A stretch of DNA of 27,729 bases from a virus: positions 1 through 27,729 of the IMG/VR virus record IMGVR_UViG_3300027844_001213, one strand, 5' to 3'. Within the stretch, counting starts at the first letter, position 1; each line of letters starts with the position of its first letter. Positions 4,253 to 27,729 of the stretch are shown here, in pieces. Under the pieces are notes generated by a model that saw only the letters and a program-made list of their open reading frames with translations, had not been told where the DNA came from and did not search any database. The position numbers and the translations under genes are program-made.

Positions 4253-4894
4253 ATGAGTCTTAGTCCAACAACAGAATTAGAAGCTATCAATACAATGTTG
4301 ACCACTATTGGTGAGCAACCTGTACAATCGAAGGATAATCTTGCAGGACTTTCAGATGCCTCTATTGCTCAACAAATTCTTTTGAATGTATCAAGATCAG
4401 TACAATCAAGAGGATGGATATTTAATACTGATCTAGATGTTACACTTACACCCGGAATCAACTCTAAAATAGTACTTGATCCTTCAGTACTAAGAATTGA
4501 TACAACTTCAAGAACCCGTACTTCAACCGAAGATATTGTTGAACGAGGTCGAAGATTATGGGATCGCCAGAATAACACAGATGTCTTTACAACTAATGTA
4601 AAAGTTGATACTGTTAAACTGCTTTCTTTTGAAGACTTACCTGAACCTGCAAGACGCTTTATCGCACTTAGAAGTGCACGAATATTTCATGATCGTGTTG
4701 TTGGAAGTGATACTCTTCATAAATTCTTTCAAGAAGATGAACAACTAGCGTGGACCCAACTTCTCGACTATGAAGGAGATGTTGGTGATTACAATATATT
4801 CGACAATTATGATGTATTTCGTGTTCTTGATCGTGCTCCATTCCAAAGCTATGGACTCACAAAGAACTTTGTAGACTCAACAGAAACCGCCTGA
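4253..4894 (+). CDS. Tail tubular protein A, T7 gp11 family
   Basis: The protein has 213 residues (T7 gp11 has 196). It forms the ring joining the portal to the tail nozzle. The N-terminal segment, TELEAINTMLTTIGEQPV followed by QSRGWIFNTD, is the signature of this family: the AIN..L..IGE..V helix, then the W-x-F/Y-N strand. The C-terminal half contains LPEPARRFIALRSARIF, also typical. It follows the capsid terminator by 26 bases, has no strong ribosome site, and its TGA overlaps the ATG of the tail tube B gene by one base, so the two are probably translationally coupled, matching their joint use in tail assembly. Confidence 0.96.
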   Translation: MSLSPTTELEAINTMLTTIGEQPVQSKDNLAGLSDASIAQQILLNVSRSVQSRGWIFNTDLDVTLTPGINSKIVLDPSVLRIDTTSRTRTSTEDIVERGRRLWDRQNNTDVFTTNVKVDTVKLLSFEDLPEPARRFIALRSARIFHDRVVGSDTLHKFFQEDEQLAWTQLLDYEGDVGDYNIFDNYDVFRVLDRAPFQSYGLTKNFVDSTETA

Positions 4895-17505: not shown

Positions 17506-17868
17506 ATGGCAGCCCCAAATGTAGTAAATGTCACATCCATTTATGGAAAAACAAAAACACAGGCAGCAACGACTGGCGCAGTCACTTTGCTGGCAAATGC
17601 AGCATCGAGTCACAAACTTCTCAAAGTAAACACAGTGATTGCTGCGAATACTGACACAGTTGCAAATTATTGGGTTACTTTGACCTATAATGATGGAGCA
17701 ACTAATGTCGATATTGCTCAACAAATAGTGATACCTGCCAAGGCAAGTCTTATCATCATTGACAAGTCTTCTTCACTTTATATGGAAGAAGGACACACAA
17801 TACAGGTACTAGCCGAAAACGCTGATATTGAACTTACTATTTCCTATGAGGAGATTGACGATGCCTAG
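17506..17868 (+). CDS. Small beta-rich tail-associated protein, function unknown
   Basis: The 120-residue protein is mostly alternating hydrophobic and polar residues with Thr/Ser/Asn, indicating a single beta-sandwich domain. It has no signal peptide, cysteines or membrane span. The start has a good AAAGGT ribosome site. It sits 15 bases after the fibre gene, and its end overlaps the first glycine-rich adhesin gene by eight bases, so it is made together with adsorption proteins. Small proteins of this kind (MAAPNVVNVTSIYGKT start, IPAKASLIIIDKSS middle) are common beside fibre genes in marine phages. A fibre or adhesin accessory role is likely but inferred. Confidence 0.8.
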   Translation: MAAPNVVNVTSIYGKTKTQAATTGAVTLLANAASSHKLLKVNTVIAANTDTVANYWVTLTYNDGATNVDIAQQIVIPAKASLIIIDKSSSLYMEEGHTIQVLAENADIELTISYEEIDDA

Positions 17869-18997
17869 AGGAAAAGACGGATCAATCATTGGAGATGCAA
17901 CTGCTGTCTCGATTACTAGTGCATCAGGAATCTGGACAATGAGTGAGGTGCATAAGTATGAGACTGAAGGTACTTGGCCTGACCCCAAACCTATAGGTGG
18001 CACTACTAGCGACTATACTGATTTCAATATTCATACATACACCGATACTGGTGAAACACTTACATTCGTGGTTACTAATACTATTGTAGTAGATATTCTC
18101 GTTGTTGGAGGAGGAGGTTCTGGTGGTGGTAGATGGGCTGGTGGCGGTGGCGGTGGCGGCCTAATTTATCTTTCAGATGTAACGTTAGCGGCAGGTACAT
18201 ACACTGCGACTATAGGTGATGGAGGTGCATCGGTAGGTTACGGCTTTCCGGGGCTTGCTGGAGCCGAAACAACATTTATCCAAACAGCAGGAGGCACCAC
18301 TGTATCTCTCGCCGCAGATGGAGGCGGCGGTGGAGGATTATACCATGAGCCTTTGGCAGTGCTACAAGATGGTGGTAGTAGTGGAGGTTCGCCGGGCATG
18401 GATTCCACAGATATTTCTTCATCGCGCCCAGCTACGCAAGGGGCTGTGTCACCGTACATCACACACATATATCCTGCCACAGGCACTCCAGTTCTCACTC
18501 AGAAAGGATATGTAGGCGGCGATGGAGCAACTGGCTCCGGTGGAGGCGGAGGCGGAGGTGCCGGAGCAGCAGGTAGTGCTGCCGCAGCCGCTGGAGGAGC
18601 GACCACCGCAGGTACAGGAGCCTGTAAAGGAGGCATTGGGCATTCAATTGCGAACATGGGACCAAGTGGCGTTACATATTATTGGGCAGGTGGTGGTGGA
18701 GGTTCTATGTACGTTACATCATCCCCCGCTGTCGCGCACGGAGGAGCCGGTGGTTCTGGAGGTGGCGGGGGCGGTGCTACTTCTTCTGGCACCGGAGGCG
18801 TAGGAGGCATCGCAGGGCTTTTAGGTCTTGCTACTGGAGAAGCCGGAGAAAGTGGAGCCAATGGAGATGGTGGTGACGGTGGAGACAATACTGGTGGAGG
18901 TGGAGGAGGTGTTGGCGGCGAGCAGACAGGAAGCGATCCTAGGCCTACTTCCGGTGCTGGAGGATCAGGAATCGTAATAGTCAGATACGCAGCATGA
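17861..18997 (+). CDS. Glycine-rich adhesin-like tail protein (1 of 2)
   Basis: I choose ATG 17861, overlapping the previous stop by eight bases, over an upstream in-frame ATG at 17828 deep inside the previous gene; this gives 378 residues. Residues 1-50 form a short attachment part with SGIWTMSEVHKYETEGTWP, a motif found in many tail proteins. From about residue 55 comes a beta strand segment (DILVVGGGGSGG), then long runs of glycine interrupted by short strands (YTATIGDGG, FIQTAGGTT), ending in GIVIVRYAA. This is the phage glycine-rich domain. Comparable poly-glycine sandwiches form the receptor-binding tip of T2/S16-type gp38 adhesins. Receptor binding is inferred; tail-tip location is supported by position. 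Confidence 0.87.
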   Translation: MPRGKDGSIIGDATAVSITSASGIWTMSEVHKYETEGTWPDPKPIGGTTSDYTDFNIHTYTDTGETLTFVVTNTIVVDILVVGGGGSGGGRWAGGGGGGGLIYLSDVTLAAGTYTATIGDGGASVGYGFPGLAGAETTFIQTAGGTTVSLAADGGGGGGLYHEPLAVLQDGGSSGGSPGMDSTDISSSRPATQGAVSPYITHIYPATGTPVLTQKGYVGGDGATGSGGGGGGGAGAAGSAAAAAGGATTAGTGACKGGIGHSIANMGPSGVTYYWAGGGGGSMYVTSSPAVAHGGAGGSGGGGGGATSSGTGGVGGIAGLLGLATGEAGESGANGDGGDGGDNTGGGGGGVGGEQTGSDPRPTSGAGGSGIVIVRYAA

Positions 18998-19036
18998 ACC
19001 ACATCCTAGAGACAAACTCAAAACTAAAGAGGAACC

Positions 19037-20836
19037 ATGAGTAAAGCAAGAACTAGAGCAGCATCTTTTGCAGGAACAGCAACAGATGGCTACGTTTTAA
19101 CTTCAGATGCGGTTGGCGTAGGTTATTGGGAAGTCAATACAGTGGCTCCAATAATCACAAGTTTCCAGTATTCAGATGGTGCATCTGCAACGGCAGAGAA
19201 AACTGTAGTAGGACTTATCACAATTGCTTGTGGTACTACAATAAGCACTACAGTAACAGTAGCTGGTGACACACTTGGAATACAAATAGGAATGGTAGTA
19301 GCTGGAGTAGGAATCCCTGTTGGTGCAACTGTTGTATCCGTTGACGAAAATGTCTCTTTCGTTTTATCATCTGCCGCAACAATAGTAGATTCAGATGTAG
19401 ACCTAACATTCGGTGGAGCAGTACTCATCACAGGTACAGGCTATGATTCTGTTCTTGGAGGAGATACTGCAAACATTGCAGTAACTTTTGGTGGAACTTC
19501 TGCAACCTCAATTTCTGTCAATTCATTCGGGACCATAATTACTTGCACTCCTCCTGCTCATGCCGCAGGAACCGTTACATTGCAAATTACAAATGCTTCT
19601 GCATTAACTGCAAGCACGAACTTTATTTATGATATAGAACCAGTATTCACTACTGCCGCAGGATCATTAGGTGGATTTGTTGAAGCAACAACTTTTACAG
19701 ATGGAGCCGGTTCAGCTACACCCGGCCCAGTAATAGCAGGTACTGAAAGTGGAGTTGCACTTACAACTGGTTTCCAGAGAGTAACAAGTGCCACAGATGA
19801 TACTGTAATCACTACAGCACTACAAGGGTTGACTCTGCAAACGAGCGGATACCTCACAGGAACTTTAACTGCTGGTGCTAATGCTACAACCTACCCCTTC
19901 TATGCAACAGCAAAGGATAATGAGAATCAGAGAACTGCACCAAGGCTCTTCAATATAATTTCTTATAATTATCCGCTCAGGGGTGAAGACATCAGAGTAG
20001 ATCCGGGTGCTTATACAGGTGGGGGTTATCGTTCTCATACATTTACTTCTTCTGGATATTTATATGTCTTGCAAGCCGTAACTGCTGATATTTTACTAGT
20101 CGGTGGAGGAGGTGCTGGAGGAGCATCAGAAAATTCAGATTCAGGTGGAGCAGGAGGCGGTGGAGCAGGGGCAGTGAAGACATCAGCATCATATTCTTTA
20201 GGTATCGGGACCTACACAGTAACTATAGGAGAAGGAGGGATAGGTCAAGCGGTAAACTATACTTATTGGAAACCGGGAGGTGATAGCAATATTACACTAG
20301 ATGGTTCTTCAATACTACTTGCTGGTGGAGGGGGTGGAGGAGGAAATTGGTCGGGCACTAATAGCAACACCGCAGGCGAACCGGGTGCGGATGGAAGTTC
20401 TGGAGGAGGTGGGAATGGTTACAGTAGTCAGTCGGGTGGTGCTGGCGATGGTGATGGAGGTACTGGTGGTGCTGGTGGCAGCTATGGTGGTGGTGGTGGT
20501 GGTGGTGACAACGGTGATGGCGATGGTGGTGGTTCCGCTGGTGGAGGTGATGGTGGTACTGGAACAACAAATGTTTATAGACTTGGTTCTGATGTAACAT
20601 ACGCTTCAGGTGGAGGAGGAGGTGCTTATGGTGGGTCAAGCGGAGGAGCAGCAGGATATGCGGCACATGGTGGTGCAGGAGGTGCTACAAGGGTCACAGG
20701 TAATGCCGCAGCAGACAACACAGGTGCTGGAGGAGGAGCCGGTGGCGGCGGGCCTAACACTACCACTGGTCAGACTACCGGAGGTGGCGGGAGTGGAGGA
20801 AAAGGAATCGCAGTAATAAGATACGCAGCGACATAA
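19037..20836 (+). CDS. Glycine-rich adhesin-like tail protein (2 of 2) with IPT/TIG-like domains
   Basis: The 599-residue protein has a good GAGG ribosome site. After a short N-terminal motif (DGYVLTSDAVGVGYWEV) an IPT/TIG-type immunoglobulin fold runs from about residue 35 to 200. It is interrupted by a Val/Gly-rich module (GIQIGMVVAGVGIPVGATVV, about 85-105) and resumes with VLITGTGYDS and IITCTPPAHAAGTVTL. A second Ig-like unit follows (about 205-310). From about residue 330 the protein shares the glycine-rich domain of its neighbour: DILLVGGGGAGG, YTVTIGEGG, long poly-glycine, and the terminal GIAVIRYAAT. The two genes are thus paralogous at their C-terminal domains, with different N-terminal spacers. 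A role in recognising host surfaces is inferred. Confidence 0.87.
   Translation: MSKARTRAASFAGTATDGYVLTSDAVGVGYWEVNTVAPIITSFQYSDGASATAEKTVVGLITIACGTTISTTVTVAGDTLGIQIGMVVAGVGIPVGATVVSVDENVSFVLSSAATIVDSDVDLTFGGAVLITGTGYDSVLGGDTANIAVTFGGTSATSISVNSFGTIITCTPPAHAAGTVTLQITNASALTASTNFIYDIEPVFTTAAGSLGGFVEATTFTDGAGSATPGPVIAGTESGVALTTGFQRVTSATDDTVITTALQGLTLQTSGYLTGTLTAGANATTYPFYATAKDNENQRTAPRLFNIISYNYPLRGEDIRVDPGAYTGGGYRSHTFTSSGYLYVLQAVTADILLVGGGGAGGASENSDSGGAGGGGAGAVKTSASYSLGIGTYTVTIGEGGIGQAVNYTYWKPGGDSNITLDGSSILLAGGGGGGGNWSGTNSNTAGEPGADGSSGGGGNGYSSQSGGAGDGDGGTGGAGGSYGGGGGGGDNGDGDGGGSAGGGDGGTGTTNVYRLGSDVTYASGGGGGAYGGSSGGAAGYAAHGGAGGATRVTGNAAADNTGAGGGAGGGGPNTTTGQTTGGGGSGGKGIAVIRYAAT
20486..20506 (+). 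repeat. (GGT)7 trinucleotide repeat in the adhesin gene
   Basis: Seven consecutive GGT codons encode a heptaglycine run inside the second adhesin. Slippage would change glycine-run length in steps of one residue without a frameshift. Other glycine runs in both adhesins mix GGA, GGC and GGT and are less uniform. Confidence 0.85.
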
Positions 20837-21048: not shown

Positions 21049-21360
21049 ATGAGTGGCGAATTTTCACAGTACGACTTTCCAAGTCCTCCTTTTGCTGGTA
21101 GTACAGAAGGACCAACCGATATAATTCAGATGATCTTTTCGCAAGCCGGTGTTGCAGGACTTGCAGCATTTGGTCTTGGATTTGTTCTCTTTAAATTTAT
21201 TAATAAACAAACCGATAGACAAGATAGAACACAAAGTGCAATCTTTAAAAGACTTGATAAAATTGATGATGCCCTCATGGAATGTACAAAAACTCTTGCA
21301 AAAATGGATGGTCGTCTTGAAGGACTTGAAAGAGAAATAGAATTATATGGACGAAAATAG
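21049..21360 (+). CDS. Single-pass membrane protein with coiled coil, holin-like
   Basis: The 103-residue protein has a hydrophobic helix at about residues 31-51 (AGVAGLAAFGLGFVLFKF), then a charged coiled coil at about 58-100 (KRLDKIDDALMECTKTLAK and on). One N-terminal membrane span followed by a charged coiled coil is the layout of BhlA/UviB-type holin-like proteins. It lies at the start of the lysis block, two genes before the endolysin's immediate neighbour. T7 gp17.5, its holin, is placed just after the fibre gene, so position agrees. Its end overlaps the next membrane protein by 14 bases. Which of the two membrane proteins is the true holin cannot be decided here. Confidence 0.8.
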   Translation: MSGEFSQYDFPSPPFAGSTEGPTDIIQMIFSQAGVAGLAAFGLGFVLFKFINKQTDRQDRTQSAIFKRLDKIDDALMECTKTLAKMDGRLEGLEREIELYGRK

Positions 21361-21601
21361 TAGAATATTTATATTGAGATGGAGTACAAGAAGTTTACTT
21401 ACACTCATGGAAATTGGACTGATTGGGTATGTAGTCTATCTAATATTTGGAGGAGGAGAACTTGCAAAAGATATGCAAAACGCTCTTTCTGTGGTTCTTG
21501 GAGGTCTAATACTTAACTTTGGTAAATCTAGTTCCTACTGGTTTAGCAATGAATCTGAAACTAATAACGGAAATAACAATAATGGAAACAATACTACTTA
21601 A
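21347..21601 (+). CDS. Two-span membrane protein, holin candidate
   Basis: The 84-residue protein has two hydrophobic segments, about residues 15-34 (LLTLMEIGLIGYVVYLIF) and 45-59 (ALSVVLGGLILNFGK), separated by a short polar loop (GGGELAKDM). A hydrophilic tail made almost wholly of Asn, Gly, Thr and Ser follows. Two spans with a polar C-terminus is a class II holin layout. It overlaps the upstream coiled-coil membrane protein by 14 bases and the next small gene by 20 bases, so the three are probably made together. Holin or anti-holin is likely from position and topology; no family motif is recognised. Confidence 0.8.
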   Translation: MDENSRIFILRWSTRSLLTLMEIGLIGYVVYLIFGGGELAKDMQNALSVVLGGLILNFGKSSSYWFSNESETNNGNNNNGNNTT

Positions 21602-21767
21602 CCTATTTAAATCTTTGATTGTCTCGGAGGCACAAAGTCTAGCAAAAGAACATGTTGAAGAAGCAATTAATGATAATCTAGATGAGAATCAAAGAGAACT
21701 ACTAGATAGTGTAGTAGATATGATGCCAGATAACTCATTTAAAAGTCTTAAGGAATTCCTGAATTAG
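21582..21767 (+). CDS. Small acidic helical protein before the endolysin
   Basis: The start at ATG 21582 (METILLNLFKSLI) gives 61 residues; an in-frame ATG at 21519 would lie deep in the previous gene and add an unconvincing peptide. An N-terminal amphipathic or hydrophobic helix (about 3-14) is followed by an acidic helical part (EEAINDNLDENQRELLDSVV). The stop is one base before the endolysin ATG. Placement between a holin candidate and the endolysin suggests a part in lysis control, but I do not recognise the family. Confidence 0.65.
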   Translation: METILLNLFKSLIVSEAQSLAKEHVEEAINDNLDENQRELLDSVVDMMPDNSFKSLKEFLN

Positions 21768-21768
21768 A

Positions 21769-22233
21769 ATGAGACTCAGTAAAAACTTTAGTCTTAAGGA
21801 ACTAACCAAGTCAACTACTGCACTACGTCTTGGAATTGATAATAATCCAACCCAAGAACAACTGGTAAACCTGACTGCACTAACCAGTTGTGTTCTGCAA
21901 CCAATTAGGAATACTCATGGTTCGGTGATGATCAATTCAGGACTACGAGTCCAAGAGTTGAATCGTACTATTGGCTCCAAAGATAGTAGTCAGCACACTC
22001 TTGGTATGGCAGCCGACATTGAATGTCCTGCACTCGATAATCTTCTTCTTGCAAAGTGGATCATTGGTAATCTTGAGTTTGACCAATGTATCCTTGAGTT
22101 CTATACACCAAATAATCCAACTTCAGGTTGGGTTCATGTCTCTTATTGTCTTAGTGGAGTTAATCGTAAGAATATTTTAAGAGCAAGTCGTTCTCCTAAA
22201 AAGGGAGTTATCTATGAAAATGGACTACAATGA
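21769..22233 (+). CDS. Endolysin, zinc peptidase of the M15 (M15A) family
   Basis: The 154-residue protein carries the M15A zinc-site pattern: SSQHTLGMAADIE at residues 73-85, where His76 and Asp83 are the expected ligands (SxHxxGxAxD), and WVHVS at 121-125 with the third ligand, His123. The upstream VMINSGLRVQELNRTIG strand and loop are also typical. Enzymes of this family cut peptidoglycan peptide cross-links, as L-Ala-D-Glu or D-Ala-D-Ala peptidases. There is no signal peptide, so access to the wall requires a holin, and two candidates are just upstream. T7 uses an amidase encoded elsewhere (gene 3.5), so the lysis enzyme here is of another type and sits in the late block. It overlaps the next gene by four bases. 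Confidence 0.93.
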   Translation: MRLSKNFSLKELTKSTTALRLGIDNNPTQEQLVNLTALTSCVLQPIRNTHGSVMINSGLRVQELNRTIGSKDSSQHTLGMAADIECPALDNLLLAKWIIGNLEFDQCILEFYTPNNPTSGWVHVSYCLSGVNRKNILRASRSPKKGVIYENGLQ

Positions 22234-22553
22234 AAAAATCTAATATTTTAAAAATTCCAAAAAAATCTAGTAAGTCTAAAGAAAGTGAGTTGATAAAATG
22301 GCAGAATAAATTAAAAGAGTTACCGTGGAAACCGAATGCCTATCCTGCGCGTGGGAACCGTTTTACCCCCAGTGGTGGAGATAAACAGAAAATCCATGAA
22401 GCAGTACAAGAAAAAAAAGAAAATTATGGATTTGGTAAATATGTTTTAAATACAAAACGCCTTGGAACTTGGGGGAATTTAGGAAAGAAAATCACAAATA
22501 CTATAATTGGTGATCCAAAAAGTAAAACACGCCGCTATAAAAAACAACAATGA
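22230..22553 (+). CDS. Lysine-rich protein of unknown function (1 of 3)
   Basis: The 107-residue protein is very basic (Lys-rich N-terminus, C-terminal KTRRYKKQQ) and has an aromatic/proline patch LPWKPNAYPARGNRF at about residues 31-45. It has no cysteine motif, signal peptide or membrane helix. Its ATG overlaps the endolysin stop and its TGA overlaps the next ATG, four bases each. I do not recognise it. The charge suggests binding to DNA, RNA or a negatively charged surface. Being late and directly before packaging genes, it may be a virion or packaging component. Confidence 0.75.
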   Translation: MKKSNILKIPKKSSKSKESELIKWQNKLKELPWKPNAYPARGNRFTPSGGDKQKIHEAVQEKKENYGFGKYVLNTKRLGTWGNLGKKITNTIIGDPKSKTRRYKKQQ

Positions 22554-23269
22554 AAACAACCGATCCAGTAACCGGAAGACCGTGGACACTTAAAAACGAA
22601 CTCGCAGCAATGCGACCCGGTGGAGGTGGACCGGGACTATCTAGTTCTGTTAATAAAGCATTAACAGCAGTCCGAAAAGTTCATGCACCTACATATACAT
22701 GGCAAAACAGAAAAGGAGTCATCTCCTCAAAAAAAGGATGGCTAGGAAAAGCAAATGATGCTAAAAGTTCTCATGTAATTCAAAATCCAGACGCTCGCCT
22801 CCAATTAGGAAGACCAACTAAGGGAACACGAGCCGACCAACGAGGACAAGGAAAATATGGAGCATGGATTGATTCTGGATACAGTACAGTTGGAAAAGGT
22901 GGTGTAGTATCTAAATCCCGATTGGTTACAGCAGAACAAGGTGCTGCGGCTGCTGGTACTGCTATTGGTATCGTAGCCACACAATGGCCCCAATCAACCG
23001 ATAATTTAACCGCTGATAATGCAACGAAACCACAACAGAAAAAAGTAAAGAAGGTAACCTCTGTTAAAGTTCTTCAGAAAAGACAGAAAGATGCTGCTTC
23101 AATAGCAAAAATACGTAAGAGGTCAAGTCAGAAAAGAGAAATGATGAAAATTGGTGTTGCGAAAAATAGAAAAGAAGCTGGATTTTTACTTAAAGAAGGT
23201 GCTAGTAGAGTCAAGAAATCAGAACATATAACTGCTCGAAATACTTACTATAAAACTGCAAAGAGATAA
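22550..23269 (+). CDS. Basic protein of unknown function (2 of 3)
   Basis: The 239-residue protein has three parts. The N-terminal part (1-60) contains TDPVTGRPWTLKNELAAMRP and a glycine patch. The middle (about 60-145) is Gly/Lys/Arg-rich and ends in a weakly hydrophobic Ala/Gly stretch (GAAAAGTAIGIVATQW). The strongly basic C-terminal third contains KKVKKVTSVKVLQKRQK and RKRSSQKR. There are no catalytic motifs or cysteines. It overlaps the upstream gene by four bases and is two bases from the next. Function is unknown; an abundance of Lys/Arg in a long disordered C-terminus would fit nucleic-acid binding. It may also be a structural protein delivered with the DNA. Confidence 0.75.
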   Translation: MKTTDPVTGRPWTLKNELAAMRPGGGGPGLSSSVNKALTAVRKVHAPTYTWQNRKGVISSKKGWLGKANDAKSSHVIQNPDARLQLGRPTKGTRADQRGQGKYGAWIDSGYSTVGKGGVVSKSRLVTAEQGAAAAGTAIGIVATQWPQSTDNLTADNATKPQQKKVKKVTSVKVLQKRQKDAASIAKIRKRSSQKREMMKIGVAKNRKEAGFLLKEGASRVKKSEHITARNTYYKTAKR

Positions 23270-23271
23270 TA

Positions 23272-23784
23272 ATGGCATACCCAAAAAGTAAAGCTAAATA
23301 TTATGCAAAATCTTATAATAAGAACTTACTAGAAACTTTTTCTAATCCAGTAGTTCAAGAGGGTGCTCTTTCTGCACTACCGGGTGGCCCTCTTATAAAA
23401 AGTGGACTAAAGATTGTAAGTAAAGTTGCAAAACCTCTTGTAAAAGCAGCATCTAAAAAGATAAGAAATTGGTCGGATATACCAGCAAATAAAAGGGCTC
23501 TTGAAAGAATGAAGGCCGATTATATTGAAACGGCTCCAATGGTTAATAGACGTAACCAGAGGGATCATGCTGCTAATGAAGTTTTTATGTTGAAACAGTC
23601 AGCACTAAAAATAAAAGGAGCAGCAACCAAAGGGTACATTAATGCCTCTCTAACTAAGGGATCAGGACTTAGTGTGGCAGCAAATTCAGGAAAATTAACA
23701 AAACCTCCTAGTTACCGAACTCATGTTCCCGTAAAAACAAAACAAGTTAAGCCAAAACCCTCTGGACCCTATTCAAAGAAATGA
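23272..23784 (+). CDS. Basic protein of unknown function (3 of 3)
   Basis: The 170-residue protein is Lys/Ser/Ala-rich throughout. Residues 25-65 form an amphipathic helix region (PVVQEGALSALPGGPLIKSG, then IVSKVAKPLVKAASKKI), which could touch membranes. The C-terminus is Pro/Lys-rich (VPVKTKQVKPKPSGPYSKK). It starts two bases after the previous gene and overlaps the small terminase by four bases. No family is recognised. Like its two upstream neighbours it is basic and late; the three form an accessory block not found in this place in T7. Confidence 0.75.
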   Translation: MAYPKSKAKYYAKSYNKNLLETFSNPVVQEGALSALPGGPLIKSGLKIVSKVAKPLVKAASKKIRNWSDIPANKRALERMKADYIETAPMVNRRNQRDHAANEVFMLKQSALKIKGAATKGYINASLTKGSGLSVAANSGKLTKPPSYRTHVPVKTKQVKPKPSGPYSKK

Positions 23785-24011
23785 AAGCTACACAAGAAAT
23801 CCTAGAGAACCTTCATGGAGTTCTGGCAGAAGAACTGATGGCTAGAATTCAGTCGGGAACTGCACTACCCTCGGATATGGCAAATGCAATTAAGTTCTTA
23901 AAAGATAATCACATAGAAGGTCTTCCAGTGATTGGATCACCATTAGGAAACCTTGTGGAGTCGATGCCCTTTCCAACCCGAAGTAAACTAATTGAGAATT
24001 ATGCGAACTAA
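23781..24011 (+). CDS. terS: Terminase small subunit (DNA maturase A), T7 gp18-like
   Basis: The 76-residue protein is near the size of T7 gp18 (89). Residues 5-45 form helices with QEILENLHGVLAEELMARIQ, then GTALPSDMANAIKFLKDN, a pattern repeated in small terminases of T7-like and many marine phages. A proline-rich C-terminal arm follows (GLPVIGSPLGNLVESMPFP). The small subunit recognises concatemer DNA and regulates the large subunit. The four-base ATGA overlap upstream and the 11-base overlap downstream place it in the packaging block, as in T7 (genes 18, 18.5, 18.7, 19). Confidence 0.9.
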   Translation: MKATQEILENLHGVLAEELMARIQSGTALPSDMANAIKFLKDNHIEGLPVIGSPLGNLVESMPFPTRSKLIENYAN

Positions 24012-24363
24012 GAATTACTATATAGTAATACCAATTCTGTTCTTTCTTGGTATCAGTGTTTTTTTGACTACCTTTAGTAGGTTTGCATACGCAAAAGAAG
24101 AAAAAACTCTTAATTTTAATACTAAAAGCATAAGAATCCTTTGGATGGCATGTTTTAAAGGAGGTCACCAAGGTCAACAAAAGATTCCTAGTGATGCAGT
24201 TGCACTTGTGTGTGACTGTGTTATTGATAAAGCTAGAACTCAATTGTCTTTTGAGTATACTACTCGTAATGCAGGTCCAATAATGAAGAAAGTTTATAGG
24301 AGATACTTGCAACAATGTAAGGAAGAAGTTGACTTAACACCAAAACCCTCACTTAGTGCTTAA
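24001..24363 (+). CDS. Secreted or membrane-anchored four-cysteine protein between terS and terL
   Basis: I choose ATG 24001 over a TTG at 23992, giving 120 residues. Residues 1-31 look like a signal peptide: RTK, a hydrophobic core (YIVIPILFFLGISVFL), then FAYA before KEE, a good signal peptidase I site. The mature part has four cysteines: Cys51, the CDC pair Cys71/Cys73, and Cys106. It ends in a Pro/Lys tail. In T7 the spanin genes 18.5/18.7 lie between terS and terL, so position suggests a cell-envelope role at lysis. However, the fold looks compact and cysteine-linked, not the long coiled coil of Rz, so I do not call it a spanin. Forty-nine bases without a clear signal separate it from terL. 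Confidence 0.8.
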   Translation: MRTKNYYIVIPILFFLGISVFLTTFSRFAYAKEEKTLNFNTKSIRILWMACFKGGHQGQQKIPSDAVALVCDCVIDKARTQLSFEYTTRNAGPIMKKVYRRYLQQCKEEVDLTPKPSLSA

Positions 24364-24412: not shown

Positions 24413-26092
24413 ATGATACAAGAGGAACTTAGAGACCTGCGAAACTTTCTGTACGTTGTATGGCACCATCTAGGCCTTCCTGAGCCTACTCCAGTACAGT
24501 ATGATATGGCTACCTACCTAAACTCCAGCGAGAAGCGTATTGTGGTCCAAGCATTTCGAGGTGCAGGGAAAAGCTATATCACTTCTGCCTTTGCTTGTCA
24601 CCAGTTGTATTTGAATCCCGAAATTAAGATTCTGGTGGTTAGTGCATCCAAGATTAGAGCAGATGACTTTTCTACGTTTACGATGAGACTGATCCAAGAA
24701 CTTCCTATTCTTCAACACCTTGTTCCGGGTGATGGTCAGCGATCCTCTAAAATCTCATTTGATGTAAGACCCGCTAAAGCGTCACACTCTCCCTCTGTTA
24801 AATCCGCTGGAATCACAGGACAACTTGCCGGTAGCCGAGCAGACATCGTTATTGCAGATGATGTAGAAATACCGAATAACTCCATGACCCAGACTATGAG
24901 AGATAAAATCTCTGAAGCAGTGAAAGAGTTTGACGCTATCTTGAAACCTGATGGACGAATCATTTATCTTGGGACTCCTCAAACAGAGATGTCCCTCTAT
25001 GAGTTACTTCCAGAAAGAGGATATAAAGTACGAATATGGCCAGCTAGGTACCCATCGAATCTAACCAAATATTCTAATAAGCTGAGTCCCTCTATATATA
25101 CTAGTATAGAAAAGGAACCAGATTTGGTTGGTAAACCTACTGATCCCCTGAGATTTGATGACCTTGATCTTATGGAACGTGAGCTTTCTTATGGAAGAAG
25201 TGGCTTTGCCCTTCAGTTTATGCTGGATACCTCACTGAGTGACCAAAATAGGTTTCCACTTAAGTTAAGTGATCTTGTGGTTATGGATGTTGATATAGAT
25301 AAGGCACCTGAAAAGGTTATTTGGGGTCGAGATAAAGATAACTATATTGATATTCCTAATGTTGGTCTACCCGGAGATTACTTCTATGGACCCATAAGTA
25401 CTGCTGGTGAATATATCGACTATACTGGATCGGTTCTTGCAGTTGACCCCTCTGGAAGAGGAAAAGATGAAACAGCATATTGTATTATCAAAATGCTGAA
25501 TGGTACTCTTTACTGTAGTGACTTTGGTGGAATAGAAGGAGGATATAGTAATGATGTTCTTGGAGTGCTTTCGGTTCTTGCAAGAAAACATAAAGTAAAT
25601 ATGATTCTGGTTGAGTCAAACTTTGGTGATGGAATGTTTAGTGAACTCCTGAAACCGGTGCTAACCAAGATTTATCCATGTAGCATTGAAGAAGTACGAC
25701 ATAGTACTCAAAAAGAAAAGAGAATAATTGATGTTCTGGAACCGGTTATGAACCAACATAGACTGGTTATGGATAGAACTGCACTTCAAAATGACTATAC
25801 CAGTGTTCAGAAGTATCCTCCAGAAGCACAACTTAAATATATGTTGGCACACCAGATGACCAGAATTACAAAAGATCGTGGTGCGTTGGTTCATGATGAC
25901 CGTCTTGATGTTCTTGCAATGGCAGTTCAATATTGGGTTGACCAAATGGCAGCAGATGTAGATACTGAAATGAAAGACCGTAAAAGTAATCTTCTTGATA
26001 AAGAGTTGGAACGGTTTGTTGAAAATGCGGTTACTCTTGGAATTGGAAATTCTATAGTAGGACCAGATTTGTCCGTACCAGTTTGGTCCTAA
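24413..26092 (+). CDS. terL: Terminase large subunit (DNA maturase B), T7 gp19 family
   Basis: The 559-residue protein (T7 gp19 has 586) is the packaging motor ATPase and nuclease. The ATPase domain shows Walker A QAFRGAGKS (residues 46-54; Lys53), then ISFDVRPAKASHSPSVKS, and Walker B ADIVIADDVE (143-152). A coupling motif IIYLGTPQTEM lies at 184-193. The nuclease domain has VLAVDPSGRGKDET (341-354; Asp345), ESNFGDGMF (401-409) and HDDRLDVLAM (494-503), giving the acidic metal ligands. These blocks match T7 gp19 in order and wording. No strong ribosome site is visible upstream. Two bases separate it from the first Fe-S carrier gene, so those genes are read through from the late operon. Confidence 0.98.
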   Translation: MIQEELRDLRNFLYVVWHHLGLPEPTPVQYDMATYLNSSEKRIVVQAFRGAGKSYITSAFACHQLYLNPEIKILVVSASKIRADDFSTFTMRLIQELPILQHLVPGDGQRSSKISFDVRPAKASHSPSVKSAGITGQLAGSRADIVIADDVEIPNNSMTQTMRDKISEAVKEFDAILKPDGRIIYLGTPQTEMSLYELLPERGYKVRIWPARYPSNLTKYSNKLSPSIYTSIEKEPDLVGKPTDPLRFDDLDLMERELSYGRSGFALQFMLDTSLSDQNRFPLKLSDLVVMDVDIDKAPEKVIWGRDKDNYIDIPNVGLPGDYFYGPISTAGEYIDYTGSVLAVDPSGRGKDETAYCIIKMLNGTLYCSDFGGIEGGYSNDVLGVLSVLARKHKVNMILVESNFGDGMFSELLKPVLTKIYPCSIEEVRHSTQKEKRIIDVLEPVMNQHRLVMDRTALQNDYTSVQKYPPEAQLKYMLAHQMTRITKDRGALVHDDRLDVLAMAVQYWVDQMAADVDTEMKDRKSNLLDKELERFVENAVTLGIGNSIVGPDLSVPVWS

Positions 26093-26094
26093 TA

Positions 26095-26463
26095 ATGATT
26101 CGTTTGACAGAAAAGGCCGCTAAAAAGATAGTGAGTATTATGAAAGAACAAAAAGTTTCTAATGATACAGTAGTACGAGTAGGTGTCAAGGGAGGTGGTT
26201 GTTCTGGATTTACGTATACAGTAGATTTTGAAAGCTATAAAGGAAAATTTGATTTGAAATTTAATTCATTTGGATTAGGTCTTGTAGTAGATAAGAAAAG
26301 TCATTTGTATATTAAAGATACAGAAATTGATTGGTCAGATACTTTAAATGATAGAGGATTAAAATTTAATAATCCGTCAGCAAAGGGTTCATGTGGTTGT
26401 CGGACTTCATTCATGTATGAACATTTGGAGATTAAAAATGAAACAGGTCCAAGCTGGATGTGA
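26095..26463 (+). CDS. A-type Fe-S carrier, IscA/SufA/HesB family (first copy)
   Basis: ATG 26095 is preferred to a TTG at 26083 inside terL; it yields 122 residues. A-type carriers bind and deliver Fe-S clusters through three cysteines, and all three are present at canonical spacing: Cys36 in GGGCSGFTY and Cys100/Cys102 in GSCGCRTSF (E. coli IscA uses 35, 99 and 101). The FNNPSAKGSCGC block is family-typical. The protein has a short extra C-terminal tail after the CGC motif (about 15 residues). It is two bases after terL and overlaps the second carrier gene by 26 bases. GC content is low (about 31% over 26101-26400 by hand count), like the phage around it. Confidence 0.95.
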   Translation: MIRLTEKAAKKIVSIMKEQKVSNDTVVRVGVKGGGCSGFTYTVDFESYKGKFDLKFNSFGLGLVVDKKSHLYIKDTEIDWSDTLNDRGLKFNNPSAKGSCGCRTSFMYEHLEIKNETGPSWM

Positions 26464-26842
26464 ACTTAAAATTTCTGAAAAGGCAGCAAATGTTTTTAAG
26501 GAAATGATTGAAGATGAAAATAAGAATATCGAAAATTCATATTTACGAGTAGGTGCAAATGCAGGTGGTTGTTCTGGATGGAAATATAGTTTAGATGTTG
26601 AAGATAAAGTTAAACCAGAAGATTTAGTTTTTACACAGAATAATATTAAATTGGTAGTAGATGGCTACATACTTAATGATATAATTGGAGATGTAGAAGT
26701 AGATTATAAAATAGGAAATTTAGTAGAACAAGGATTTGTTTTTAAAAGATTGAAGTATGAACATGTCTGTGGATGTGGAGAAAGTTTCACACCAATAAAG
26801 GATATTGTGGCAGATGGTAAACAATATTTAGGCTGGAAATAA
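26438..26842 (+). CDS. A-type Fe-S carrier, IscA/HesB family (second, divergent copy)
   Basis: ATG 26438 is chosen, inside the end of the first carrier; an earlier in-frame ATG at 26393 would overlap further and add 15 residues with no family likeness. The 134-residue protein keeps the three ligand cysteines: Cys45 in AGGCSGWKY and Cys111/Cys113 in VCGCGESF. It differs from the first copy in most other positions, lacks the NP motif before CGC, has an additional Cys8, and has a C-terminal extension ending YLGWK. The family assignment is firm. The two copies are too different to be a recent duplication; whether they form a heterodimer, as ISCA1/ISCA2 do in mitochondria, is open. It overlaps the iscU ATG by one base. 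Confidence 0.94.
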   Translation: MKQVQAGCELKISEKAANVFKEMIEDENKNIENSYLRVGANAGGCSGWKYSLDVEDKVKPEDLVFTQNNIKLVVDGYILNDIIGDVEVDYKIGNLVEQGFVFKRLKYEHVCGCGESFTPIKDIVADGKQYLGWK

Positions 26843-27225
26843 TGGCTTACAGCGAAAAGGTACTTGATCACTATGAAAAACCGAGAAATATTGGTAGTTT
26901 GGATAGTAGGAATGCTTCTGTTGGCACTGGTCTTGTCGGTGCTCCAGAATGTGGAGATGTTATGAAACTTCAGATCAAGGTTGAGAACAATCGGATCATA
27001 GATGCGAAATTCAAGACCTTTGGATGTGGTAGTGCTATTGCATCTTCTTCTCTTGCAACCGAGTGGGTGAAGGGCAAGACACTGAACGAGGCTATGACCA
27101 TTAGAAACACGGAGATTGTCGAAGAACTCTCGCTTCCACCCGTGAAAATACACTGCTCGGTGCTGGCAGAAGATGCGATTAAAGCAGCAATCACCGACTA
27201 TAAATCTAGGAGTCTTGATATTTAG
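26842..27225 (+). CDS. iscU: IscU Fe-S cluster assembly scaffold
   Basis: The 127-residue protein is nearly full length against E. coli IscU (128) and very similar throughout. It holds Cys37 and Asp39 in VGAPECGDVMKLQIKV, Cys62 in FGCGSAIASSSL, and His104-Cys105 after the LPPVK motif (98-102), the site recognised by the HscA chaperone. IscU builds 2Fe-2S clusters from sulfur supplied by the desulfurase IscS and passes them on with HscA/HscB. No desulfurase, ferredoxin or chaperone is in the window, so host partners would be needed. GC is about 46% over 26881-27180 by hand count, against 31% in the first carrier gene, suggesting a separate or later origin. Its ATG overlaps the previous stop (TAATG). 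Confidence 0.98.
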   Translation: MAYSEKVLDHYEKPRNIGSLDSRNASVGTGLVGAPECGDVMKLQIKVENNRIIDAKFKTFGCGSAIASSSLATEWVKGKTLNEAMTIRNTEIVEELSLPPVKIHCSVLAEDAIKAAITDYKSRSLDI

Positions 27226-27235
27226 GAGTAAAAAT

Positions 27236-27358
27236 ATGTTACCCTATCGCTATATGGATTTTAGAGGTTTCCCCCATAGGGGTTTTAAGGGCCGTCTCAC
27301 ACGCGCACATCACGCGGGGGTGTGGGGGGGTACCCGCGGGTCACGCAGGGACACGTAG
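27236..27358 (+). CDS. Possible 40-residue peptide with a strong ribosome site
   Basis: ATG 27236 follows AGGAG (27224-27228) by seven bases, one of the best ribosome sites in the window. The frame reads MLPYRYMDFRGFPHRGFKG, then enters the GC-rich zone and ends at TAG 27356-27358 within the first 32-bp spaced repeat. The second half (HHAGVWGGTRGSRRDT) looks like translated repeat DNA. It may be a real small gene, or the remnant of a longer gene cut by the GC-rich segment. No family is recognised. Confidence 0.3.
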   Translation: MLPYRYMDFRGFPHRGFKGRLTRAHHAGVWGGTRGSRRDT

Positions 27359-27401
27359 GCGAGCCACGTGGGTCACGCAGGGACACGTAGCCGCACACGA
27401 G
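27338..27401 (+). repeat. Two direct repeats spaced by 32 bp (left, degenerate group)
   Basis: A block containing TCACGCAGGGACACGTAG occurs at 27341-27358 and again at 27373-27390, exactly 32 bp apart; with three preceding G residues the match is 21 bp. A weaker relative (TCACGCGGGGGTGTG) lies at 27310-27324. The core CAGGGACAC is shared with the right-hand array, so these are diverged members of the same family. Confidence 0.85.
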
Positions 27402-27451
27402 GCAAACCGCTGCCATTGGGAGCCGTTTGTTACGTTAGTGAGGGCCATAAA

Positions 27452-27589
27452 ATGACGTTTGTTATCGTAAGTTTATTTCTGGTTTTATCTGTTTTTTTGT
27501 CACGTGCTATCGTAACATCTAGCCTCGCGTCACACGCGGGTACGTACAGGGACATGAGCGGACATGCAGAGACACATACAGGGACATGA
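27452..27589 (+). CDS. Doubtful 45-residue peptide with one hydrophobic helix
   Basis: The frame begins at ATG 27452 with a possible GAGG site about nine bases upstream. Its first 16 residues are strongly hydrophobic (FVIVSLFLVLSVFL), like a membrane anchor, but the second half runs into the 32-bp repeats (TYRDMSGHAETHTGT). It could be a tiny membrane peptide or a chance frame in the T-rich island. Confidence 0.2.
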   Translation: MTFVIVSLFLVLSVFLSRAIVTSSLASHAGTYRDMSGHAETHTGT

Positions 27590-27729
27590 GCGGACATGCA
27601 TGGACACATACAGGGACATGAGCGGACATGCAGGGACACATACTTGAGCAAGCAGGGACATGCAGGGACACATACTTGAGCAAGCAGGGACATGCAGGGA
27701 CACATACTTGAGCAAGCAGGGACATGCAG
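27546..27729 (+). repeat. 32-bp tandem repeat array running off the window edge
   Basis: Five full units and one cut unit lie head to tail with an exact 32-bp period: 27546-27577, 27578-27609, 27610-27641, 27642-27673, 27674-27705 and 27706-27729 (24 bp seen). The first three (type A) begin ACAGGGACATGAGC and differ from each other by one or two bases. The last three (type B) begin ACTTGAGCAAGCA and are identical over their visible length. Both types share the right half, GGACATGCAGGGACACAT. There is no spacer, so this is not a CRISPR array. Because 32 is not a multiple of three, frames through it change each unit. Confidence 0.98.

Follow-up and report, generated by a model that had tools for sequence, protein, structure and literature searches.

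A 32-bp tandem array at the predicted left genome end of a T7-type phage

The DNA analyzed here, a viral stretch of 27,729 nucleotides that we call the window, closes with a tandem array of 32-bp units that fills its last 183 bases (positions 27547 to 27729). The array raises two questions, namely whether the window edge on which it lies is an end of the virus genome, and whether its units serve a function there, such as the presentation of regularly spaced binding sites to a protein that processes DNA ends.

Units of the array

Tandem Repeats Finder assigns to positions 27560 to 27729 a period of 32 bp with 5.3 copies and 92% matches, which bears out the tandem array that the initial annotation had placed at the right edge of the window. 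Identity at a lag of 32 nucleotides is 0.92 in the array and does not exceed 0.46 in any other 172-bp stretch sampled from the first 27.3 kb. On the plus strand, three type A units (27547–27642) are followed by about 2.7 type B units (27643–27729), comprising two complete units and 23 nucleotides of a third that goes on in two other contigs, L003 and L082. The order is thus A A A B B B (partial) with one switch, and the two unit types do not alternate as had been described. At this switch, the left 13 bp of the unit change from CAGGGACATGAGC in type A to CTTGAGCAAGCAG in type B, while the right 19 bp, GGACATGCAGGGACACATA, stay constant and the 32-bp period is exactly maintained, as the initial annotation had noted. 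Its description of the array as perfect holds for the type B units only, which are mutually identical, since the first two type A units carry one substitution each (A1, CAGAGACACATA; A2, CATGGACACATA).

Two features outside the array had been overlooked. The array core recurs in diverged form as GGGTCACGCAGGGACACGTA, two copies of which (here called type C) lie on the plus strand at 27338 to 27389 with a spacing of 32 bp; their filler is a different sequence of 12 bp that is not that of A or B. In addition, a degenerate copy of the core lies on the plus strand directly before the array (about 27526–27546) and is in the same 32-bp register. A core of 19 to 20 bp and a spacing of 32 bp are therefore maintained in types C, A, and B, each of which has its own filler. 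Within type A, GGACA-like submotifs are spaced 10, 10, and 12 bp apart, or approximately one helical turn.

We considered a coding repeat and rejected it; this origin is unlikely because a period of 32 is not divisible by 3, and the sole long ORF that spans the array is a Cys-rich frame on the minus strand. The predicted folds of 27226 to 27420 and 27540 to 27729 are not significantly better than those of shuffled sequences (z of −0.20 and −1.14, respectively), and an Rfam search of the array region gave no match at E values up to 1. No second copy of the array was found elsewhere in the window.

The window edge and the closed map

A search of IMG/VR with the unit pattern of the window returned only two further records, both from the same virus, and these reveal that the window edge is an assembly break and not the end of the virus genome. 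Record 3300009786_003834 (L003), which shows 9 differences from the window over 4,865 positions and has the same substitutions in its type A units, extends 17 nucleotides past the window edge and likewise ends within the array. Record 3300027847_000730 (L082, also listed as G001; 21,080 bp) opens on type B units, which fill 100 bp and are followed by an array with a 27/9-bp period, and the pattern GGGACACRTA is confined to its first 80 bp. L082 then continues into early genes and the genes for a T7-type RNA polymerase, single-strand binding protein (SSB), endonuclease I, amidase, helicase-primase, and DNA polymerase A. The array thus does not stop at the window edge, where it had been taken to end.

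The right end of L082 overlaps the left end of the window by 3.28 kb, with a 1-nt length difference close to the start of the overlap; overall, the two sequences have 3,216 20-mers in common. Because L082 starts in the array and also overlaps the left end of the window, the map closes at approximately 45.5 kb, and the array is its sole gap. All three records extend 100 to 123 bp into the stretch of the array whose units are identical, a reach that would fit a short-read assembler meeting a repeat longer than its word. The array accounts for the contig breaks in this virus. It had been suggested that the left end of the genome be searched for the same array. The array is indeed present there, as one array common to two contigs and not as a second copy. 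It is found in independent records and joins the late arm of the genome (the window) to the early arm (L082). Host chromosome beyond the array was considered and rejected, since the prokaryote genomes scanned yielded no array and four isolated single matches in unrelated organisms.

The genome is of the T7 type (Autographiviridae-like), as it carries a gene for a single-subunit, T7-type RNA polymerase (L082 5764–8205; PF00940, E 1e-108). Other members of the T7-type gene set in the combined genome are SSB, endonuclease I, a gp3.5-like amidase, helicase-primase, DNA polymerase A, terminase, portal, and capsid. The terminase large subunit gene (DNA maturase B; 24413–26092, plus strand; Pfam PF22530, E 5e-41; PHROG 38, E 1e-112) is the last of the late/packaging block, and the best isolate matches of its product are 60% identical and all T7-like. 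The seven small ORFs upstream of this gene (21049–24363) have no PHROG match, and no small terminase subunit was recognized among them. The interval from the terminase gene to the predicted terminal repeat is occupied by two IscA-like genes and one IscU-like gene for Fe-S cluster proteins (26098–27225, plus strand; PF01521 twice, PF01592). IscU and IscA genes are already known from marine phages (PMC5332604). In several relatives (L017, L020, and L023), an IscU-like gene precedes the terminase gene.

The array is non-coding and separates these late genes (terminase and Fe-S) from the early genes. Given that L082 leads from the array into early genes and that the map closes, the array resides in the late/early gene junction of a T7-like phage, and T7-type genomes have their ends at this junction.

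Several other features of the two arms were observed. The G+C content of 27200 to 27729 is about 55%, compared with mostly 28 to 40% in the preceding 2 kb and 46 to 48% in the IscU-like gene. Long GGT/GGA-type repeats at 17828 to 20836 encode two large Gly-rich proteins that are probably tail fibre related. Four further arrays are present in L082 between 96 and 871, before and between the first early genes, with the 27/9-bp array at 96 to 169 and arrays of 18, 19, and 10 bp at 492 to 871; several are rich in GATC or GTAC palindromes (for example, GTGATCAC and GTGTACAC). By eye, L082 at about 4610 to 4685 looks like a tRNA gene with anticodon GTC.

Predicted genome ends and the junctions of relatives

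To predict the ends of the genome, we used landmarks from isolates whose records carry exact terminal repeats. The terminal repeat ends within one base at ATCTGTT in T7 (160 bp), T3 (231 bp), SP6 (174 bp), and Syn5 (237 bp), and at close variants of this motif in K1F, gh-1, HTVC019P, and P-SSP7; LUZ100 and RHEph01 break the rule. All eight conforming isolates have a C-rich element, CCCC(A/G)TAG in most of them, that begins 25 to 29 nucleotides into the terminal repeat. ATCTGTT is the motif at which RNA polymerase pauses at the T7 concatemer junction (class II) (PMC11617373).

These landmarks predict a direct terminal repeat of 240 bp at 27247 to 27486 (plus strand), present as a single copy in the concatemer and in the assembly. 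The palindrome CCCCCATAGGGG (27271–27282) starts 25 nucleotides into this predicted repeat, and the corresponding element of T7, CCCCCATAGGGGG, starts at 26. The 17 bases immediately before the predicted repeat, AAAAATATGTTACCCTA (27230–27246, plus strand), resemble by eye those that precede the terminal repeat at the right end of T7 (AAAAATCTGAGTGACTA) and of T3. A class II pause/termination motif, ATCTGTTTTTTT, occupies 27487 to 27498 on the plus strand, and the predicted concatemer junction thus falls between 27486 and 27487, with the right physical end at approximately 27486. Measured from this predicted boundary, the array would then start about 60 bp in from the left end, or 40 bp if the degenerate copy is included, compared with 14 bp in T7.

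The arrangement resembles the T7 concatemer junction in that a sense-strand ATCTGTT, the single one in the combined map, ends a 240-bp stretch that begins near CCCCCATAGGGG, and in that genes for a single-subunit RNA polymerase and a gp3.5-like amidase are present. It differs in that the motif is followed by T residues, seven in all, whereas T7 has ATCTGTTACAG. The predicted pause motif adjoins the array and is not inside it. The minus strand of the combined map has seven copies of ATCTGTT, and the same bias is seen in P-SSP7 (0 on the plus strand versus 18 on the minus strand) and HTVC021P (2 versus 17), as though copies on the sense strand had been eliminated for halting the phage polymerase.

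Related junctions were compared in a set of 48 non-redundant viruses that includes that of the window. ATCT[AG]TTTT is present on the plus strand in 31 of the 48 junctions, but is absent from 201 kb of upstream control sequence and occurs once in 128 kb downstream; shuffled sequences had it in a mean of 1.1 junctions and a maximum of 6. Tandem arrays occur within 500 bp past the terminase gene in 38% of the viruses, compared with mostly 0 to 10%, and at most 20%, in other 500-bp bins, although part of this concentration is expected because junctions are gene-free. Where a relative has both an array and the junction element, the median distance between them is 33 bp (within 250 bp in 15 of 17), with the array on the left in 11 and on the right in 6. 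Restricting positions to the first 700 bp weakens this nearness (P 0.015). The units of these arrays are unrelated in sequence and have periods of 9 to 68 bp, and that of T7 is 13 bp, so the three-turn helical phasing that had been proposed from the 32-bp unit does not extend to a general rule. Even relatives whose terminase is 76% identical carry different arrays or none. Among isolates, arrays lie 14 to 180 bp to the right of the terminal repeat in T7, 45 to 144 bp in SP6, 27 to 145 bp in K1F, and 78 to 145 bp in HTVC019P.

The junctions of the relatives also contain promoter-like sequences. Perfect sigma-54-type promoters (TGGCAC-N5-TTGC, such as TTTGGCACGAACTTTGCAATTCC) occur on the plus strand in the junctions of 10 of the 48 viruses. 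There is none on either strand of the 329 kb compared elsewhere, nor was the motif found at a spacing of 4 or 6. Measured from the end of the terminase gene match, the sites are at 188 bp (L005, L007, and L009), 189 bp (L012), 116 and 308 bp (L015), 412 bp (L042), 413 bp (L081), 458 bp (L043), 668 and 778 bp (L062), 695 bp (L051), and 732 bp (L045). L009, which was excluded from the comparison as redundant, carries one more match 6.2 kb downstream. Where the junction element is found, the sites precede it by about 80 to 280 bp (mostly 115–165 bp), and they are sometimes within the array, as in L015 and L062. The virus of the window has no such site. This pattern suggests that marine T7-like phages may use host RpoN at their genome ends. 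In L034, an array of 68-bp units (2035–2240) has a sigma-70-type promoter in each unit (TTGACA, followed by a −10 box like TATGCTAGACT), and thus, judged by its sequence, is a tandem promoter array at a genome end.

Possible roles of the array

By position, the array belongs with the known short-repeat arrays beside T7 terminal repeats. The likeness to T7 that had been drawn earlier is therefore apt with respect to location, in the region of genome ends and to the right of the predicted junction, but not in treating the window edge as the end itself. As in T7, whose left-end CCTAAAG array was reportedly named SRL by Dunn and Studier in 1983, a non-coding tandem array lies directly right of the terminal repeat (here predicted) and ATCTGTT, before the early promoters, and related copies are present inside the terminal repeat (CCTAAAG at 17, 41, and 60 in T7; the type C pair here). 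Unlike in T7, the unit is 32 rather than about 13 bp long and the copies are nearly perfect. The initial annotation was correct that the unit is not that of T7, as its sequence is unrelated to CCTAAAG. This motif defines the array of T7 itself and not the kind of array, since the units of SP6, HTVC019P, and K1F differ as well. Yersinia T7-like phages that are 90 to 97% identical have 11 to 34 repeats between the left terminal repeat and the first phage promoter (PMC5923468). These fPS phages have several repeat types in the same place as the array described here, with copy number and unit shifting over short evolutionary time, although the sequences and unit lengths are different (PMC5923468). 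Literature searches gave nothing usable on what the T7 arrays do.

We therefore favor, with a probability of roughly 0.7, the interpretation that the array represents the short-repeat region at the left end of a T7-type phage genome and is mainly a hypervariable non-coding spacer. By comparison with the isolates, the phage RNA polymerase would pause at ATCTGTTTTTTT and terminase would cut the concatemer there, so that the array would come to flank the left end on its inner side. The cutting signal would not be the array itself; the conserved signals, CCCCCATAGGGG and ATCTGTTTTTTT, are its neighbors. The units may arise and be homogenized in gene-free DNA through slippage during replication or through unequal recombination. 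Such processes would account for the switch from A to B, the identical type B units, the adjoining arrays of 27, 18, 19, and 10 bp, and the absence of conserved sequence. The main role of the array would then be that of a variable spacer, keeping the terminal signals apart from the early promoters. Several points speak against this interpretation: LUZ100 and RHEph01 break the landmark rule, the arrays of relatives are more often to the left of the junction element than to its right, their concentration in gene-free junctions is partly expected, and plain slippage does not require a 32-bp spacing and a 19-bp core to be kept through three fillers.

That same regularity, along with the submotif spacing in type A and the proximity of the junction element, would suit an array that functions as a helically phased set of binding sites, whether for terminase, for phage RNA polymerase, or for some other protein, and that aids concatemer processing by the pause site. 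We consider this unlikely, as the unit is limited to this virus among IMG/VR contigs, close relatives manage with other arrays or none, and the periods of the relatives vary so widely. A position that is kept without a kept sequence points to a spacer or a by-product rather than to a specific binding site. Somewhat more doubtful is the specific version in which the array is a platform by the junction, with the 19-bp core, presented every three helical turns, recruiting terminase or holding the paused polymerase. Tandemly duplicated promoters or regulatory sites for the early genes have precedents in the arrays of L034, L015, and L062, but no promoter-like site was found inside the array of the window and a good sigma-70-type site lies beyond it (L082 1169), making such a role quite improbable.

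Two further explanations can be given very little credence. With its 32-bp direct repeats, its gene-free setting, and its position near a genome end, the array recalls an iteron-type replication origin; yet the replication genes are of the T7 type, the unit is not conserved in relatives, and no iteron-type initiator was recognized among the proteins tested. An assembly artefact would be in keeping with the contigs ending within the array and with the false repeats of about 79 bp reported near terminal repeats in T7-like phage assemblies (PMC10438801), but is hard to reconcile with the identical type A substitutions in the window and L003 and with the recurrence of the array in L082.

If the platform interpretation were nevertheless true, it would be general to T7-type genome ends, wherein position is fixed and sequence is free, with each array co-evolving with its own binding protein. 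Whether the arrays beside T7 terminal repeats do anything is an old question that can now be tested across many phages. The ends of uncultivated T7-like phages are predictable from sequence: an element of the CCCCCATAGGGG type marks where the terminal repeat starts, ATCTGTT or ATCTATTTT marks where it ends, and hypervariable arrays adjoin them. This rule for predicting ends and the sigma-54-type promoters, both by-products of the analysis, may prove to be of greater value than the array itself.
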